Assembly (NCBI RefSeq): GCF_000378305.1
Contig: NZ_KB899539.1
Coordinates: forward strand, 157,854-221,853
Direction of reading: 5' to 3'
Length of the DNA: 64,000 nt
Source of the DNA: Thioalkalivibrio sp. ALJ12
GTDB taxonomy: Bacteria; Pseudomonadota; Gammaproteobacteria; Ectothiorhodospirales; Ectothiorhodospiraceae
This document shows, in pieces, positions 28,686-36,081 of this stretch (positions are counted from its first letter, which is position 1; each line of letters opens with the position of its first letter). A program made the position numbers and the translations under genes. Under the pieces are notes generated by a model. The model did no database searches, was not told the origin of the DNA, and saw nothing but the letters and a program-made list of their open reading frames with translations.

Positions 28686-29918
28686 ATGGTCGCCATGCGG
28701 GCCTTTTTGCAGGACCACCCGGACTTCGCTTCTTTGCGCGTCGCCTTTAGCGGCGGCCGCGACTCCTCTGTATTGCTGCACGCGCTCGCGCGACTGCGCC
28801 CTCAAGGGCTTGAGGCCTGGCATGTGAATCACGGTCTGCGACCGGATGCCGATGCGCAGGCGGCGTTCTGTGTACGCGTTGCCGAGGCGCTGGATGTAGC
28901 GCTGACCGTACGCAAGGTGACCGTTCTTGATGATGCCTCCGAGGGGCCGGAGGCCGCAGCGCGCCGTTCACGCTACACGGCCCTGCGCGAGGGCCTCGGG
29001 GGGCGGGACCTGATCCTGACCGCCCAGCATGCCGACGACCAGGCCGAGACTTTTCTGCTCGCCGCGCTGCGCGGGAGCGGTCCGGAGGGCCTTCAGGGCA
29101 TGCGGGTACTGCGTCGCGAAGGGGACACCTGGTTGGGGAGACCGTTGCTGGAGGTCCCGGGCGAGGCCATCGCGGACTACGCAGAAGCGGCGGGGCTCGG
29201 TTGGTACGACGACCCAAGCAATGACGACACCCGGTTCGATCGCAATTTCCTGCGCCGCGAGATCCTCCCGCGTCTGGCGGAGCGCTTCCCTGTTCATGCC
29301 TCCCTGGCGCGCAGCGCCCGCTGGCAGCGCGAGGCCGTCGACCGCCTGGAGAGCCTGGAGGATGAACGCATTCCGGATGAGGCCTCGCTCGAGCTGGCCT
29401 CGCTGGCCGAGCTGGACCGGCCCGCTCGACGCGCGCGATTGCGGGCCTGGCTGCGCGCGCAGGGCCTGCGACCGCCGGGCCATGCGCGGCTGGAGGAGTT
29501 CTGTCGGCAACTGGAGGTCCACGCGCCGGACCGGACTCCGGAGCTGCGCTGGGCGGATGGCTGGATGGGCGTTTATCGCGGAACGATTTGTGCCGAAGCC
29601 CCGGATGCAAAGTCGGCCGTGCCAGGTGACGTGATCCCCTGGCCGCCGGGGCATGCGCGCCTGACGCTCCCGGATGGTCGGGTACTGGAGCGCGCAGCGC
29701 TGGTGGCCCTGGGTGTGGACGCGCAGGAGGCGCTGGAGGTCGGTTTTCGCCGGGGTGGGGAAACCGTGGTGACGCCAGCGGGTCGCCGACCCTTGAAGAA
29801 GCGGCTTCAGGAGCGGGGGATCCCGCCATGGGAACGCGAACATCTGCCGTTGGTCAGGCGGCAGTCGGATGGGCTTGTCGTCGCCATTCTCTGGTCGCAT
29901 GGAGACCTGGGTCCCTGA
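28686..29918 (+). CDS. tilS: tRNA(Ile)-lysidine synthase
   Basis: Modifies C34 of tRNA-Ile (CAU) to lysidine so that AUA is read as Ile. The roughly 410-residue protein has the PP-loop VAFSGGRDSSVLLHAL, VNHGLRPDADAQ, LTAQHADDQAET, the YDDPSNDDTRFDRNFLRREI motif and a C-terminal substrate-binding domain (VTPAGRRPLKKRLQERGIPPWER). The start is uncertain: ATG 28686 is given, but a GTG at 28623, inside accA, is also in frame. The order accA-tilS is common. Confidence 0.94.
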   Translation: MVAMRAFLQDHPDFASLRVAFSGGRDSSVLLHALARLRPQGLEAWHVNHGLRPDADAQAAFCVRVAEALDVALTVRKVTVLDDASEGPEAAARRSRYTALREGLGGRDLILTAQHADDQAETFLLAALRGSGPEGLQGMRVLRREGDTWLGRPLLEVPGEAIADYAEAAGLGWYDDPSNDDTRFDRNFLRREILPRLAERFPVHASLARSARWQREAVDRLESLEDERIPDEASLELASLAELDRPARRARLRAWLRAQGLRPPGHARLEEFCRQLEVHAPDRTPELRWADGWMGVYRGTICAEAPDAKSAVPGDVIPWPPGHARLTLPDGRVLERAALVALGVDAQEALEVGFRRGGETVVTPAGRRPLKKRLQERGIPPWEREHLPLVRRQSDGLVVAILWSHGDLGP

Positions 29919-30033
29919 AGGCGGCACGTCCGGTGGATGGTGATCCGTCCAGAACCTGTAGTCCCCTTGCAGTTGACGGGGCGAGCGGAAAAGCCAATGC
30001 TTGAACTTCGTCATACTTTTGAGGGGCCGGGGT

Positions 30034-30798
30034 GTGAGAACCATCAGCCGGCAGACCAGGGCATATGTCCGGGGTATCGCTTGTGTGTTCGCGTTGCTGG
30101 GTATGGCAACGGCACAGGGCGGAACCCTCAGCCTGGCCACCGAGAGTTATCCGCCATTTAACTTCGAGACGCCGGAAGGCGGGCTTGACGGTATCTCTGT
30201 GCGCGTGATGAACCAGCTGCTCGAGGAAACCGGGATCGAGGCCGAGATCCGTTTGTTGCCCTGGAGTCGTGCTTACGCCGAGGCGCAGTCGAACCCCGAT
30301 ACCTGTGTGTTCTCGACGACGCGGACTCCGCAACGCGAAGAGCTCTTCGAGTGGGTAGGCCCGCTGGTGGAGAATCAGTGGCATGCCTATGCCCTTGAGG
30401 GCTCCGACGTCGCAGCGCAGTCGCTCGATGACCTTCACGACTATCGAGTGGGTGGTTATCGCGACGACGCCGTTGCGTTGTATGTCGAGGCCCGGGGGAT
30501 TGAGATCGATACCGCCCCCAATGACCGCCTGAACGCGCGCAAGCTCGCGGCCGACCGGATTGACGTCTGGGTCAGTGGCGAGCACCTCGCACCCTGGTAC
30601 GCGCGCCTGGAAGAGATCGGCGAACTGCGCTCGCTGTTTGCCTTCAACGACACGGTGATGTCGCTCGCCTGCCACCCGGATACCGATCGCGATCGGCTGG
30701 ACCGCCTCCAGGCCGCGCTGGATGCCATGCGCGAGGATGGCCGCTACGCAGCGATCGTCAGCGAAGTACTCGAACGTAACGGAGACGCGAATGACTGA
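30034..30798 (+). CDS. Periplasmic amino-acid-type substrate-binding protein (SBP_bac_3)
   Basis: A 254-residue precursor: basic N-terminus, hydrophobic core and a signal cleavage near ATAQGG, then a PBPb fold (LSLATESYPPFNFETPEGGL, MNQLLEETGIEAEIRLLPW, CVFSTTRTPQREELFEWVGP). The GTG at 30034 has GAGGGG upstream; a TTG at 30001 is an alternative. No ABC transporter genes lie near. The stop overlaps siaB by 8 nt, so it is co-translated with the Sia genes and may feed a signal to SiaA. A weak promoter candidate (TTGACG at 29973, AATGCT at 29996, 17-bp spacing) lies upstream. Confidence 0.8.
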   Translation: MRTISRQTRAYVRGIACVFALLGMATAQGGTLSLATESYPPFNFETPEGGLDGISVRVMNQLLEETGIEAEIRLLPWSRAYAEAQSNPDTCVFSTTRTPQREELFEWVGPLVENQWHAYALEGSDVAAQSLDDLHDYRVGGYRDDAVALYVEARGIEIDTAPNDRLNARKLAADRIDVWVSGEHLAPWYARLEEIGELRSLFAFNDTVMSLACHPDTDRDRLDRLQAALDAMREDGRYAAIVSEVLERNGDAND

Positions 30799-31384
30799 GT
30801 TCGCCACGCAGCGCGAAGCGGATCGCGGTGGCCTGATCGCCGAGGAGGTGCTGGATTTTCAGCGCAACATGACCCGGCGCGGCATTATCTTTTCGTTCAC
30901 CGGCTATATCTCCGAAGGCATCCTGAAGGCGCTGGGCGACGCCCTGCGTCAGAAGATCCGGCTGGAGTCGACAGACAACAAGACCGTAAACCGAGTGTTC
31001 TCGGTGTTCGTCGAGCAGGTGCAGAACATCATTCGCTACTCGGCCGAACGGATCGAGCACGCGGCGGAACCCCCGGTGGAGCTGAGCTCCGGCATGATTA
31101 CGGTCGGCTCCGAAAAAGGCCGATTCTTCGTGATCTGCGGCAATATCATCGCCCGCGAAGACGCGGATACTCTGGGCAGCCGGCTGAGCGAGCTTCAGGG
31201 GATGGACAACGAGGCCCTGCGGCGCTTCTACAAGGAAAAGCTGCGCGAGCCGCCGGACGAGGGCAGCAAGGGGGGCAGCATCGGGCTGATCGAGATCGCA
31301 CGCCGAGCCAGCGAGCCGATCCAGTTCGACTTCGAGCACCTCTCCGACGCGTATTCCTACTTTGTACTGAAGGCCTACATCTGA
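30791..31384 (+). CDS. siaB: SiaB-family protein kinase (DUF6272)
   Basis: A 197-residue cytoplasmic protein resembling Pseudomonas aeruginosa SiaB, a kinase that phosphorylates a Thr of SiaC. Visible features are the GIIFSFTGYISEGILKALGDAL segment split by family-type spacing, VFSVFVEQVQNIIRYSAER as an N-box-like helix with Asn, and the late GSKGGSIGLIEIARRAS glycine-rich region, consistent with a GHKL-like fold. The ATG at 30791 overlaps the preceding gene by 8 nt, and its stop overlaps siaC (TGATG type). Identification rests on these features plus the siaC, siaD and siaA neighbours. Confidence 0.85.
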   Translation: MTEFATQREADRGGLIAEEVLDFQRNMTRRGIIFSFTGYISEGILKALGDALRQKIRLESTDNKTVNRVFSVFVEQVQNIIRYSAERIEHAAEPPVELSSGMITVGSEKGRFFVICGNIIAREDADTLGSRLSELQGMDNEALRRFYKEKLREPPDEGSKGGSIGLIEIARRASEPIQFDFEHLSDAYSYFVLKAYI

Positions 31385-31776
31385 TGGCAGCACTGGACCC
31401 CATTCGACACGAGGCAACGGACCGCACCCCGGAGGTCCTGTTCGATTTCGCGGCGGGGCATTACCGCATTTCCGGCGAGTCCTACCCGGAAGACGCTGCG
31501 AGCTTCTATGGACCCCTGACCCAGGGCCTGCGACAGGCGGTCCAGGAGCGGGCCAGCGAGTCGCTGGAGTTCAGCGTCGAGATGATCTACTTCAACAGCT
31601 CGACCGCGAAGGCGCTGATGAACCTCTTTCAGATCCTCGAAGACGCCGCCGAGGCCGGCATCAACGTGCGCATCAACTGGTGCTACCACGAAGACGACGA
31701 GACGATGGAAGAATTCGGCGAGGACTTTTCCGAGGACTTTGCCCACGCGGACTACCGCATGTGCCCGACATCATGA
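31384..31776 (+). CDS. siaC: SiaC-family regulatory phosphoprotein (DUF1987)
   Basis: A 130-residue protein related to P. aeruginosa SiaC, which in unphosphorylated form binds and activates the diguanylate cyclase SiaD. Family features are TPEVLFDFAAGHYRISGESYPED, the FSVEMIYFNSSTAKALMNLF strand-helix and the INVRINWCYHEDDETMEEFGEDF end. The likely phosphoacceptor lies in NSST (residues 71-74, T74), corresponding by motif to the phosphorylated Thr of SiaC; this is inference. It overlaps both siaB and siaD by a few nt. Confidence 0.88.
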   Translation: MAALDPIRHEATDRTPEVLFDFAAGHYRISGESYPEDAASFYGPLTQGLRQAVQERASESLEFSVEMIYFNSSTAKALMNLFQILEDAAEAGINVRINWCYHEDDETMEEFGEDFSEDFAHADYRMCPTS

Positions 31777-32645
31777 ACGCCTCTCACGACCCCAAGCAGC
31801 CAGTGCCGGTGCCAGCGACCGCACGCGACGGCGACGATCCGGAAGCGCTTGCCGACTTCTCTCTGTTCGAGCAGGAGAAGCAGATCATGCAGCGCTCCGA
31901 GCAGATGCTGGAGGCGCTGGACGATGTGGCCGAGGGCGTGCGCATGCTCGCCAAGGCCTATTCAGAGAGTTATCGCGTTCAGCGCCGCATGATGCGCATG
32001 AGTGATCGGATGCAGCTGGACCTGCAGGCCGCCAACCGTCAGCTGCGCGAGCAGGCCACCCACCTGGAGCAGCTCAACGGTGCACTGTCCGACGAGGTGC
32101 GCGAGCGCGAGCGCCTGACGGCCGAGCTCGAGCGCCTGGCGCTGGAGGATGCCCTGACCGGGCTGTTCTCGCGGCGCCGGGTAATGGACTGTGTCGAGGG
32201 GCTGGCCGAAACGGTGGGCGATCAGGCCCGCTCGCTCACTGTGATGATGCTCGACCTAGACGACTTCAAAGCCCTGAATGACACCCATGGCCATGCCGCC
32301 GGGGATTACGCCCTGCAGAGCTTCGCCGAGATCCTCCGCGGCGAGCTCGGCGCCGATCAGTACGCCGGGCGCATGGGGGGCGAGGAGTTCCTGGTGGTGG
32401 CCGCGGACCTCGAGCTTGATGCGGCCATGAGCTTGGCGGAGCGCATCCGCACCACTGTCGAGCAGACGATCCCGCGCTGGAAGGGCGAACCGCTGCATCT
32501 GGAGGTCTCGATCGGTCTCGTCGTGACGACCGAACGCTGGCCGGATGCCGGGGCGCTGGTCGCGGCGGCGGATGATCTGCTTTACCGCGCGAAAAACGAA
32601 GGCCGTAATCGCGTCGAGGTCCAGTTCCACGGCGAGTCGGTATGA
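31773..32645 (+). CDS. siaD: SiaD-like GGDEF diguanylate cyclase
   Basis: A 290-residue cytoplasmic protein: N-terminal part and coiled coil (about 25-120, with repeated QRSEQMLEALDDVAEGVRML and LREQATHLEQLNGAL heptads), then a GGDEF domain (about 120-285) with LEDALTGLFSRRR, MLDLDDFKALNDTHGH and the active-site variant GGEEF (RMGGEEFLVVA). An RxxD product-inhibition site is not present at the usual place before GGEEF. SiaC is expected to bind the N-terminal coiled coil. The ATG at 31773 overlaps the siaC stop; its own stop overlaps siaA. Confidence 0.9.
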   Translation: MNASHDPKQPVPVPATARDGDDPEALADFSLFEQEKQIMQRSEQMLEALDDVAEGVRMLAKAYSESYRVQRRMMRMSDRMQLDLQAANRQLREQATHLEQLNGALSDEVRERERLTAELERLALEDALTGLFSRRRVMDCVEGLAETVGDQARSLTVMMLDLDDFKALNDTHGHAAGDYALQSFAEILRGELGADQYAGRMGGEEFLVVAADLELDAAMSLAERIRTTVEQTIPRWKGEPLHLEVSIGLVVTTERWPDAGALVAAADDLLYRAKNEGRNRVEVQFHGESV

Positions 32646-34318
32646 CAGAGCCCGGCCCGGCGCGCAGCCGCAGCCTGGTCGCGAAGCTGGCGCTCGCGAC
32701 CCTGCTGGTTGCACTGGCGCTCAGCCTGCTGGCGAGCGCCTATGTGATCGCGGCCGACTCGCGTGCCTTTCGCGCGGACACCCTGGAACAGATCGAACGG
32801 CTGCAACGGCTGGTGGCCCCTCCCGCGGCCGAGGCGGCCTATCAGCTGAATGCCGATCAGGCGGAATCACTTGTGGCGGGCCTGCAGGCCTTTGACGAGA
32901 TCCACCGCGCCGAGATACTCGACGACTTCGGGCGCACCTTGGCCGAGGTGGAACGCGAAGGTGGCGGCGCCTCCTGGCTTGGGGAACGCCTGTTCGGGGC
33001 GGATCGCCAGCACGAGCGCGAACTGCTCCACCCGGACCTGCGCGAAACCAATGGTGCAGTGGGGATGCTGCGTGTGGAGCTCGCCCCCGATGTGCTGGCT
33101 GCAGCCCTGATCGAGCGTCTCCGCAATAGCGTGATCACCAGCGTGGTGCAGGCGGTGATCGTCTCGCTGGTCGTCGTACTGCTGTTCTACGGCCTCATGC
33201 TGCGCCCGATGCTGCGCATCTCCCGAGCCGTGGCGGGTACCGATCCCGACCATCCGGCCCAGTGGCCGCGCCCCCGCATGGGCCACCATGTGGATGACGA
33301 GCTCGGTGCCCTGGACCGCTCGCTCGACCGCCTCCTGAATGCCTTTCAGCAGGGCCTTGATGCGCGGGATGGTGCGCGGGGCGAGCTGAAGGCCCTGAAC
33401 GAGGACCTGGAGCGCCGCGTGGTCGAGCGTACCCGCGAGCTGGAGGCCGAGAAGCTGGAGACTGAACGTGCGCTTGCGCGGGTCGACGAGGCCAACCGCG
33501 AACTCGAGCGCAGCAACCGCCTTGTGGTGGAGAGCATCCGCTATGCGCGGCGCATCCAGACCGCGATGCTCCCGGACAAGCACGCCCTGGACGGACACCT
33601 GGACGAGGTGCAGGTCTACTGGGAGCCGCTGCACCTGGTTGGTGGCGACTACTTCTGGCTGGAGGCCATCGACGGGCGCAGCGTGCTGGTGGCCGCGGAC
33701 TGTACCGGGCATGGCGTCCCCGGGGCATTCATTACCCTGGTGCTGGCCTCGGCGCTGGATCGCATCCTGCATGAACACCGGCTCCTGGAACCGTCGGCAA
33801 TCCTGCGCGAGATGGATCGGCTGGTGCGCTCGCGCCTGCGCCAGGACGGTCATGACTCGGATTCCGACGACGGATTGGAGGCGGCGGTGTGCGTCTATGA
33901 CCCGGATGCCCGGACCCTGACCTTTGCCGGCGTAGGGCTGCCGCTGATCATGGATCGTGCGGGACAGGTGGAAGAGATTCGCGGCGTCCGCGGTGGGCTG
34001 GGGTATCGCAGCCTGGAGCCCGCGCAGCCGGTGGATCATGTGGTGGCGGTCGAGCCGGGCATGGAGTTCTTCCTGATTACCGACGGAGCCCACGACCATG
34101 TGGGTGGCGAGCCGCCCCGACTGTTCGGGCGCCGTCGCCTGCGCCACGTGCTGGCGGAAAAGTCCCCGCGTGACCTGGCCGCCAAGATCGATTCCGTGGT
34201 CCGCGTACTGGAGGATTATCGCGGCGGCGAGCCACGGCGTGACGACATGACGCTGGTGGCCTTCCGGCCGCTCGCGGCGGACGCGCAAAACATGCCGCGT
34301 GGTGCGGCGGCCGATTGA
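32642..34318 (+). CDS. siaA: SiaA-like membrane PP2C/SpoIIE phosphatase
   Basis: A 558-residue inner-membrane sensor phosphatase: first transmembrane helix about residues 13-38, periplasmic domain about 40-155, second helix about 160-188, HAMP region, coiled coil (about 240-310) and a C-terminal SpoIIE/PP2C domain. Metal-binding motifs are visible: LVGGDYFWLEA, VAADCTGHGVPGAF, LITDGAHDH and PRRDDMTLVAF. In P. aeruginosa SiaA dephosphorylates SiaC and so turns on SiaD. Here it is the last gene of the operon, whereas it is first in P. aeruginosa. Confidence 0.9.
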   Translation: MTEPGPARSRSLVAKLALATLLVALALSLLASAYVIAADSRAFRADTLEQIERLQRLVAPPAAEAAYQLNADQAESLVAGLQAFDEIHRAEILDDFGRTLAEVEREGGGASWLGERLFGADRQHERELLHPDLRETNGAVGMLRVELAPDVLAAALIERLRNSVITSVVQAVIVSLVVVLLFYGLMLRPMLRISRAVAGTDPDHPAQWPRPRMGHHVDDELGALDRSLDRLLNAFQQGLDARDGARGELKALNEDLERRVVERTRELEAEKLETERALARVDEANRELERSNRLVVESIRYARRIQTAMLPDKHALDGHLDEVQVYWEPLHLVGGDYFWLEAIDGRSVLVAADCTGHGVPGAFITLVLASALDRILHEHRLLEPSAILREMDRLVRSRLRQDGHDSDSDDGLEAAVCVYDPDARTLTFAGVGLPLIMDRAGQVEEIRGVRGGLGYRSLEPAQPVDHVVAVEPGMEFFLITDGAHDHVGGEPPRLFGRRRLRHVLAEKSPRDLAAKIDSVVRVLEDYRGGEPRRDDMTLVAFRPLAADAQNMPRGAAAD

Positions 34319-34343
34319 GCCGTCAGGGGCTCTCTGGTAGCAT
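34315..34343 (+). promoter_or_regulatory. Candidate sigma-70 promoter of pyrG-kdsA
   Basis: TTGAGC (34315-34320) and TAGCAT (34338-34343) are 17 bp apart. The -35 overlaps the siaA stop codon, and pyrG begins about 65 nt downstream of the expected start. No terminator was seen between siaA and pyrG. Confidence 0.5.
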
Positions 34344-34392
34344 TTCGGCCGATCTGAGCCGCCCGTGAGCCGTATGAGCGGGGCTACCGTAA

Positions 34393-36081
<1,689 letters not shown>

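Follow-up and report, generated by a model that had tools for sequence, protein, structure and literature searches.

What does a periplasmic solute-binding protein (SBP) do at the head of an operon for cyclic di-GMP (c-di-GMP) signalling? The question is raised by a stretch of 64,000 nucleotides from Thioalkalivibrio sp. ALJ12, referred to here as the window, in which five overlapping genes on the plus strand (positions 30034-34318), flanked by tilS and pyrG, encode an SBP of the SBP_bac_3 family, SiaB, SiaC, SiaD and SiaA. The operon holds no transporter genes. According to the available parts of two reports on P. aeruginosa, SiaB phosphorylates SiaC at Thr68, SiaA opposes it as a phosphatase, and unphosphorylated SiaC switches SiaD on (PMC7647112, PMC8457831); the accessible part of a third describes SiaA of this species as a sensor of membrane perturbation (PMC12834913). 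A preliminary description of the locus had recognized all four Sia components in overlapping genes of rearranged order, as well as an SBP_bac_3 gene overlapping siaB by 8 nt, and both observations held when checked by Pfam, NCBIfam and PDB matches and by coordinates. We consider it likely that the SBP is the dedicated periplasmic signal receptor of SiaA, its ligand setting SiaC phosphorylation and the c-di-GMP output of SiaD.

The SBP gene (30034..30798, plus strand) encodes 254 aa with an N-terminal hydrophobic, signal-like helix. It starts with GTG, an in-frame TTG being present at 30001, and shares its last 8 nt with siaB (30791..30798). Among 58 related genomes, 15 encode SiaC, and in 14 of these, the window's included, an SBP orthologue (68-100% identity) stands first in the operon. 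The order SBP-B-C-D-A was found in 12 of the 13 orthologous loci that were fetched; the thirteenth (L023) lies on a 4-kb contig that shows SBP-B-C-D and ends inside siaA. In all 13, as in the window, the siaB ATG lies 8 nt inside the SBP stop. Since the order recurs in the fetched loci, the arrangement is not a matter of chance. The preliminary description had left it to other genomes whether the five genes belong together, and the SBP proved to be present in every one of the 14 orthologous operons, the window's and the 13 that were fetched. The fifteenth SiaC genome (G035) has an A-B-C-D operon with no SBP and a SiaA without predicted transmembrane (TM) segments, and G026 carries, in addition to the five-gene operon, a canonical sia operon without SBP. 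B-C-D-A without a detected SBP was also seen in L121, L140 and L151, so the order of the sia genes is not in itself unique.

Within the same 58 genomes, the SBP tracks the sensor domain of SiaA. SBP homologues at E <= 2e-27 occur in 18 genomes, a count that leaves out five further genomes with weak best matches only (7e-8 to 8e-10), and a profile of the SiaA sensor (A4) matches exactly these 18. Four of them (G012, G031, G034 and G036) have SBP and sensor without SiaC. In these four, a different SpoIIE phosphatase carries the sensor and shares an operon with a GGDEF protein, a DUF6272-like protein (below cut-off), a STAS protein and an SBP. An association of the SBP with SiaC was thus rejected in favour of one with the sensor. 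A Fisher test on the co-occurrence of SBP and sensor gave 2e-15, kinship being ignored. Thioalkalivibrio operons of the composition diguanylate cyclase, DUF6272-like, STAS, SpoIIE and SBP2 (L056-L059, L086-L088) resemble the window's operon in carrying the same sensor on a SpoIIE phosphatase together with a paralogous SBP, but differ from it in having STAS in place of SiaC and a phosphatase domain that is 26-30% identical. At L088 (4744-6561), two tandem SBP2-class genes lie behind the sensor-SpoIIE gene.

SiaA (32642..34318, plus strand; 558 aa) is a membrane phosphatase of the PP2C/SpoIIE type (SpoIIE, 2e-24; PDB entry 6k4e, 7.2e-43 over residues 256-542). Its input half (residues 1-245; 32642..33376, plus strand) runs from a TM segment through a periplasmic sensor domain common to SBP-linked cyclases (residues 35-165; 32744..33136, plus strand; profile A4) to a second TM segment and a HAMP-like part, and its output half (residues 246-558; 33377..34318, plus strand) comprises a coiled coil and the phosphatase. 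Hydropathy gives two TM segments in the orthologues L018 and L020. We compared sensor and phosphatase of the window SiaA separately with 75 rows, namely all SiaA-type open reading frames (ORFs) of more than 379 aa in chosen loci plus one chemoreceptor. The sensor found its matches in two orthologues from the genus and in five rows of SBP-linked SpoIIE proteins (34-40% identity, z 18-26), the latter representing four distinct sequences, as L058 and L087 are probably one genome; the remaining 68 rows gave z of 2.6 or less. The phosphatase half, in contrast, was closest to the SiaC-linked L140 and L151 (53-54%), both without a detected SBP, and reached only 26-30% with the SBP-linked SpoIIE rows. 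Along the chain, five sensor-GGDEF proteins show 38-45% identity to the window SiaA over residues 1-243, whereas L140 shows 47% over residues 228-552 and L151 48% over residues 247-543; the switch in the identity profile falls between residues 250 and 300. Judged from these alignments, SiaA is a chimera that joins the input half of SBP-linked cyclase receptors to a SiaC-linked phosphatase half. The sensor-HAMP cassette makes for a natural chimera whose joint can be seen near residue 245, and its outputs include GGDEF, SpoIIE and, more distantly, a histidine kinase (L216). No clear match to the sensor was found among PDB sequences. A CHASE8 (YfiN-type) label was not accepted, the Pfam E-values of 0.03 (window) and 0.05 (L058) both falling below cut-off, and the similarity of the SiaA N-terminus to NCBIfam YfiR-associated kinases (1e-5) is far below cut-off.

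The input half is probably derived from operons that combine SBP, sensor and GGDEF. In a class-wide sample the sensor profile matched 7 of 369 genomes, five of them outside the genus; one of the five (G352) has the arrangement SBP2-SBP-sensor-GGDEF, and another (G354) a convergent SBP_bac_3 gene beside sensor-GGDEF-EAL. The family of G352 (f156) is probably Halomonadaceae, because the SBP/sensor-GGDEF gene pair was found in one record of a plasmid collection, from Halomonas sp. PA16-9. Profile A4, built without any sequence of this family, matched 72 of its 250 genomes, and the reading covered 41 of these 72 loci. In all 31 loci with a strong sensor match (L186-L214, L225 and L181), an SBP lies directly upstream on the same strand and the sensor ORF carries a GGEEF motif, with GGDEF confirmed by Pfam in the four that were checked. 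These SBPs are 40-49% identical to that of the window and are considered its orthologues. Two SBP domains are present in 30 of the 31 loci, either encoded by separate genes or, in several genomes, fused in a single protein, and the SBP and sensor-GGDEF genes overlap by 4 nt in 22 (first-start ORFs). Loci with weaker matches were split by architecture, the sensor E-values of the two groups meeting near 5e-14; in three of them (L215-L217) an SBP_bac_3 gene overlaps the sensor ORF, and the output of L216, the one checked by Pfam, is a HATPase. The f156 operons thus share with the window an orthologous SBP, a homologous sensor half and overlapping genes, but differ in their direct diguanylate cyclase output and their second SBP domain. 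In a quick SBP tree, the clade of the window SBP is sister to the membrane-proximal SBPs of f156 (SH-aLRT 91), and both fall within a group of 32 rows (99) that excludes the SBP2 class; some branches are very long. We infer that the transplant went from a cyclase receptor to SiaA; the trees themselves are unrooted. One f156 genome (G712) holds both systems separately, a canonical SiaABCD (L158) and an SBP2-SBP-sensor-GGDEF operon (L198). A literature search found no publication on the SBP-sensor-GGDEF operons of this family.

These operons bear on the possibility that the ligand-sensing SBP works through some other receptor and stands in the operon for co-expression only. The window's genome does contain six other SBP_bac_3 matches, five of which lie in open frames of 505-977 aa and are candidates for other receptors. 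However, the sensor half of SiaA is of the very kind that stands behind SBP orthologues in f156, and profile A4 has a single match in the genome, which makes a different receptor very unlikely.

The window SBP matches Pfam SBP_bac_3 at 7.8e-15 (55.2 bits, cut-off 26.4), and its structural model and fold matches point to a type II periplasmic binding protein fold shared with transporter SBPs. Proteins of the SBP_bac_3 family mostly serve polar amino acid transporters, and the fold would suit an uptake protein that is merely co-transcribed with the sia genes and feeds an ABC transporter encoded elsewhere, an alternative that the preliminary description had named. However, TIGR01726, the model of polar-amino-acid (HEQRo-type) permeases, had no match in the window's genome (2.78 Mb in size and 99.97% complete) in a search confined to this permease type, whereas it matched 11 of 14 control genomes. 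Since this permease is missing, it is unlikely that the SBP belongs to a polar amino acid ABC transporter, and as its gene is linked to the sensor domain rather than to SiaC, a role in uptake appears very unlikely. The pocket was compared across 29 aligned SBP relatives. Arg101, which we take to be the usual carboxylate grip, is invariant in 29 of 29. The position that in amino-acid-binding SBPs is presumably held by the Asp that grips the amino group has Gly, Asn or Ser in all 29. A ligand held as a standard alpha-amino acid seems unlikely in such a pocket, and the nutrient signal invoked in the preliminary description finds no support. Cys91 is conserved in 29 of 29 and Cys213 in 28 of 29, and the two may form a disulfide. 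The SBP also resembles ancestral cyclohexadienyl dehydratase proteins in sequence (3e-6) and in fold, as would a periplasmic enzyme of this type that is not a binder. But the binding protein AncQR is the better sequence match (3e-9), and the position of the Glu that we assume to be catalytic in the dehydratase family is aligned with Ala; an enzymatic role is very improbable.

In wider samples, SiaC turned up in 12 of 370 genomes of the class and in 54 of 397 of the phylum, and 73 sia loci outside the genus were read, the weak phylum matches G460 and G547 being left out. SBP_bac_3 scores above the Pfam cut-off in eight of the 73. It is fused with PAS and SpoIIE beside SiaB-SiaC in five (L094, L110, L113, L146 and L150) and forms a separate gene in three (L092, L124 and L138). 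Genome densities give a chance expectation of 2.3 loci (P 0.002 for eight or more of 73). The loci were found by first-round and domain-trimmed SBP profile searches, and a profile seeded with SBPs of this kind may miss others. L104 and L130, matched by the trimmed profile, were not counted (Pfam gave no family in L104 and a sub-cut-off PF00497 in L130), nor was L153, a kinase with a partial match. L138 has the arrangement SBP-SiaB-SiaC-SiaA, in which the free SBP gene overlaps siaB by 1 nt, and PF00497 matches just once in its genome (G530), presumably at this SBP. As far as these loci go, an SBP is a minority input of SiaA-type phosphatases, yet the pairing is seen in several unrelated forms. 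That the SBP acts through the periplasmic domain of SiaA, as the preliminary description had suggested, has strong comparative-genomic support, because sensor and SBP travel together whether or not SiaC is present and SBP_bac_3 is fused to SiaA-type phosphatases elsewhere. With a cyclase-driving SBP-sensor cassette apparently grafted onto SiaA in one lineage and such fusions in others, we think it probable that gating by SBPs is a general route of input to Ser/Thr protein phosphatases.

The fused loci encode six SiaA-type proteins that are 1142-1915 aa long and contain between one and three SBP_bac_3 domains each; several of the proteins also carry NMT1 or hemerythrin domains. At L099 (6610-8384) and L154 (10375-11289), SiaA is preceded by an ABC_sub_bind (PF04392) protein, at L099 together with a phosphonate-binding-type protein, and other binding-protein families are possible partners of SiaA there. 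At L134 (5369-5746), a gene for a 125-aa secreted-looking protein of no Pfam family directly adjoins the SiaA gene.

Several observations weigh against a partnership of SBP and SiaA, or against its descent as described above. SBP_bac_3 exceeds the cut-off in only the eight of 73 other sia loci, and although the SBP is present in every orthologous operon, its apparent absence from most sia operons further afield agrees in part with a doubt raised in the preliminary description. Common descent inflates the co-occurrence counts, which reflect few independent events. No SBP_bac_3 was detected at the sensor loci of G182, G305 and G288, three of the five class matches outside the genus, and seven weak-sensor loci of the 41 read in f156 (L218-L224) have no SBP; by Pfam, L218 is GGDEF-EAL and L224 is GGDEF. 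The sensor tree leaves the sister group of the window unsettled. The SiaC-linked SiaAs L101, L028 and L104 align with the window SiaA from residues 182, 185 and 211, respectively, so that their weak similarity extends into the HAMP-like part, and the nearest phosphatase relatives, L140 and L151, have a short periplasmic loop as well as no detected SBP. SBP homologues without a linked receptor in view occur in Undibacterium (L075, L076 and L078) and in L080. The adjacency of SBP and siaD in Janthinobacterium was dropped as support, as the gene is convergent and SiaA has no predicted TM segment.

The SBP homologues of L075, L076, L078 and L080 are 39-44% identical, and the Pfam-checked neighbours in L076 and L080 are M16 peptidases. 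At L077 (6199-9156), a homologue (42%) precedes a hybrid histidine kinase at a distance of 27 nt. In the Janthinobacterium loci (L083, L084, L089 and L090), the gene for an SBP of the same family faces siaD tail to tail, with 3-10 nt between the two ends.

The remaining three genes, all on the plus strand, encode a SiaB-family kinase (30791..31384; 197 aa; DUF6272, 2.8e-43; NCBIfam SiaB_fam_kinase, 1e-62 and 210.8 bits against a cut-off of 85), the phosphoprotein SiaC (31384..31776; 130 aa; Pfam SiaC, 1.1e-40; 6k4f and 6kko, E about 5e-16) and the diguanylate cyclase SiaD with a GGEEF motif (31773..32645; GGDEF, 3.8e-36; 7e6g, 7.6e-20). SiaB and SiaC overlap by 1 nt, SiaC and SiaD by 4 nt, and SiaD and SiaA by 4 nt. 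Promoter-like sites within 29700-34700 fall inside siaA and pyrG, and none lies upstream of the SBP gene. Solved SiaA, SiaB, SiaC and SiaD chains are among the PDB sequence matches of the window proteins, and all four P. aeruginosa SiaA, SiaB, SiaC and SiaD equivalog models of NCBIfam stay below their curated cut-offs; by these matches, the system is a homologue of the P. aeruginosa Sia set that lies outside the strict orthologue set. The kinase, phosphoprotein, cyclase and PP2C phosphatase are common to both. SiaA retains the metal-binding and active-site motifs GGD, DC.GHG, TDG and RDD in alignment with 6k4e, and SiaB the N-box-like Glu in alignment with 6kko. The window differs in its operon being headed by an SBP gene and in its gene order, B-C-D-A instead of the A-B-C-D of P. 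aeruginosa, an order also observed in L028, a homologue of the P. aeruginosa locus. Its SiaA has a sensor of about 130 aa without detectable similarity to the dCache-containing SiaA of L028. Its SiaC has Ser instead of Thr at the acceptor position (motif Y-F-N-S-S-T, aligned to 6k4f); among SiaCs that match the motif pattern, Ser is found in 56 of 67 loci and Thr in 11. SiaD aligns to 7e6g from residue 65 on, its stalk as sole query matching neither 7e6g nor any other SiaD structure, and lacks the RxxD inhibitory (I-)site. In the window and in 13 of 13 fetched genus orthologues this product-inhibition site is replaced by a Gly-Ala-Asp/Glu-Gln type, and R..D is present in 20 of 32 other GGDEF ORFs taken from sia loci.

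The SBP gene is linked to a receptor whose periplasmic domain lies between two TM segments, as in pairs of the ScrBC and NspS-MbaA type. In V. parahaemolyticus, the available part of one report states, ScrB binds the signal and acts on ScrC; loaded ScrB triggers the phosphodiesterase activity of ScrC, which without signal is a cyclase (PMC11315295). Likened by description, not by sequence, the window resembles this pair, whose periplasmic binding protein governs a c-di-GMP enzyme in the membrane; it differs in that ScrC is a cyclase and phosphodiesterase in one protein with a ligand made by ScrA, whereas here a phosphatase that works on a partner switch forms the output. NspS-MbaA of V. cholerae, as far as the accessible accounts go, likewise pairs an SBP with a membrane c-di-GMP enzyme but differs in its polyamine ligand and bifunctional c-di-GMP output; NspS also belongs to a different SBP family. 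By analogy with ScrB-ScrC, and given the gene linkage, the secreted SBP would bind a small ligand in the periplasm and dock on SiaA at its short periplasmic domain, SiaA being a membrane phosphatase with a transplanted input module in a SiaABCD partner switch. The signal would run via the second TM segment and the HAMP-like helices to the phosphatase, which would remove the phosphate from the acceptor Ser of SiaC (Thr68 in P. aeruginosa) and oppose SiaB, and unphosphorylated SiaC would activate SiaD to make c-di-GMP. We infer these activities in Thioalkalivibrio from the P. aeruginosa work. The same partnership could also work with the opposite sign: the ligand-free SBP may restrain SiaA until ligand relieves it, or the loaded SBP may turn SiaA off. 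YfiR restrains YfiN in this manner, and the N-terminus of SiaA bears the faint, sub-cut-off resemblances to YfiR-associated kinases and CHASE8 mentioned above; in ScrBC, too, it is the loaded binding protein that triggers the phosphodiesterase. We regard the opposite sign as a real possibility, if somewhat short of an even one.

The part of PMC9602780 available to us lists chemoreceptors, sensor kinases, cyclases and phosphodiesterases, and Ser/Thr kinases as SBP-driven receptors, with phosphatases not among them, and the accessible part of a c-di-GMP review names SBP_bac_3, as a domain of RmcA, as the sole domain of the periplasmic binding protein clan studied in such networks (PMC8846402). 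No report of the present arrangement was found among the matches listed, by titles and the starts of abstracts, in searches on Sia, on SBP-phosphatase pairs and partner switching, on c-di-GMP in Thioalkalivibrio and on SBP_bac_3 in Halomonas. If SBP and SiaA are indeed partners, phosphatases of the PP2C/SpoIIE type would join those known classes of SBP-driven receptors. The input of SiaA-type phosphatases would here be a soluble, expressible receptor, which opens the signal to ligand screening. In the SiaABCD biofilm-signal switch of this soda-lake sulfur bacterium, the sensor has apparently been swapped for one whose usual partner is a small periplasmic binding protein, and the binding protein seems to have come along with it.

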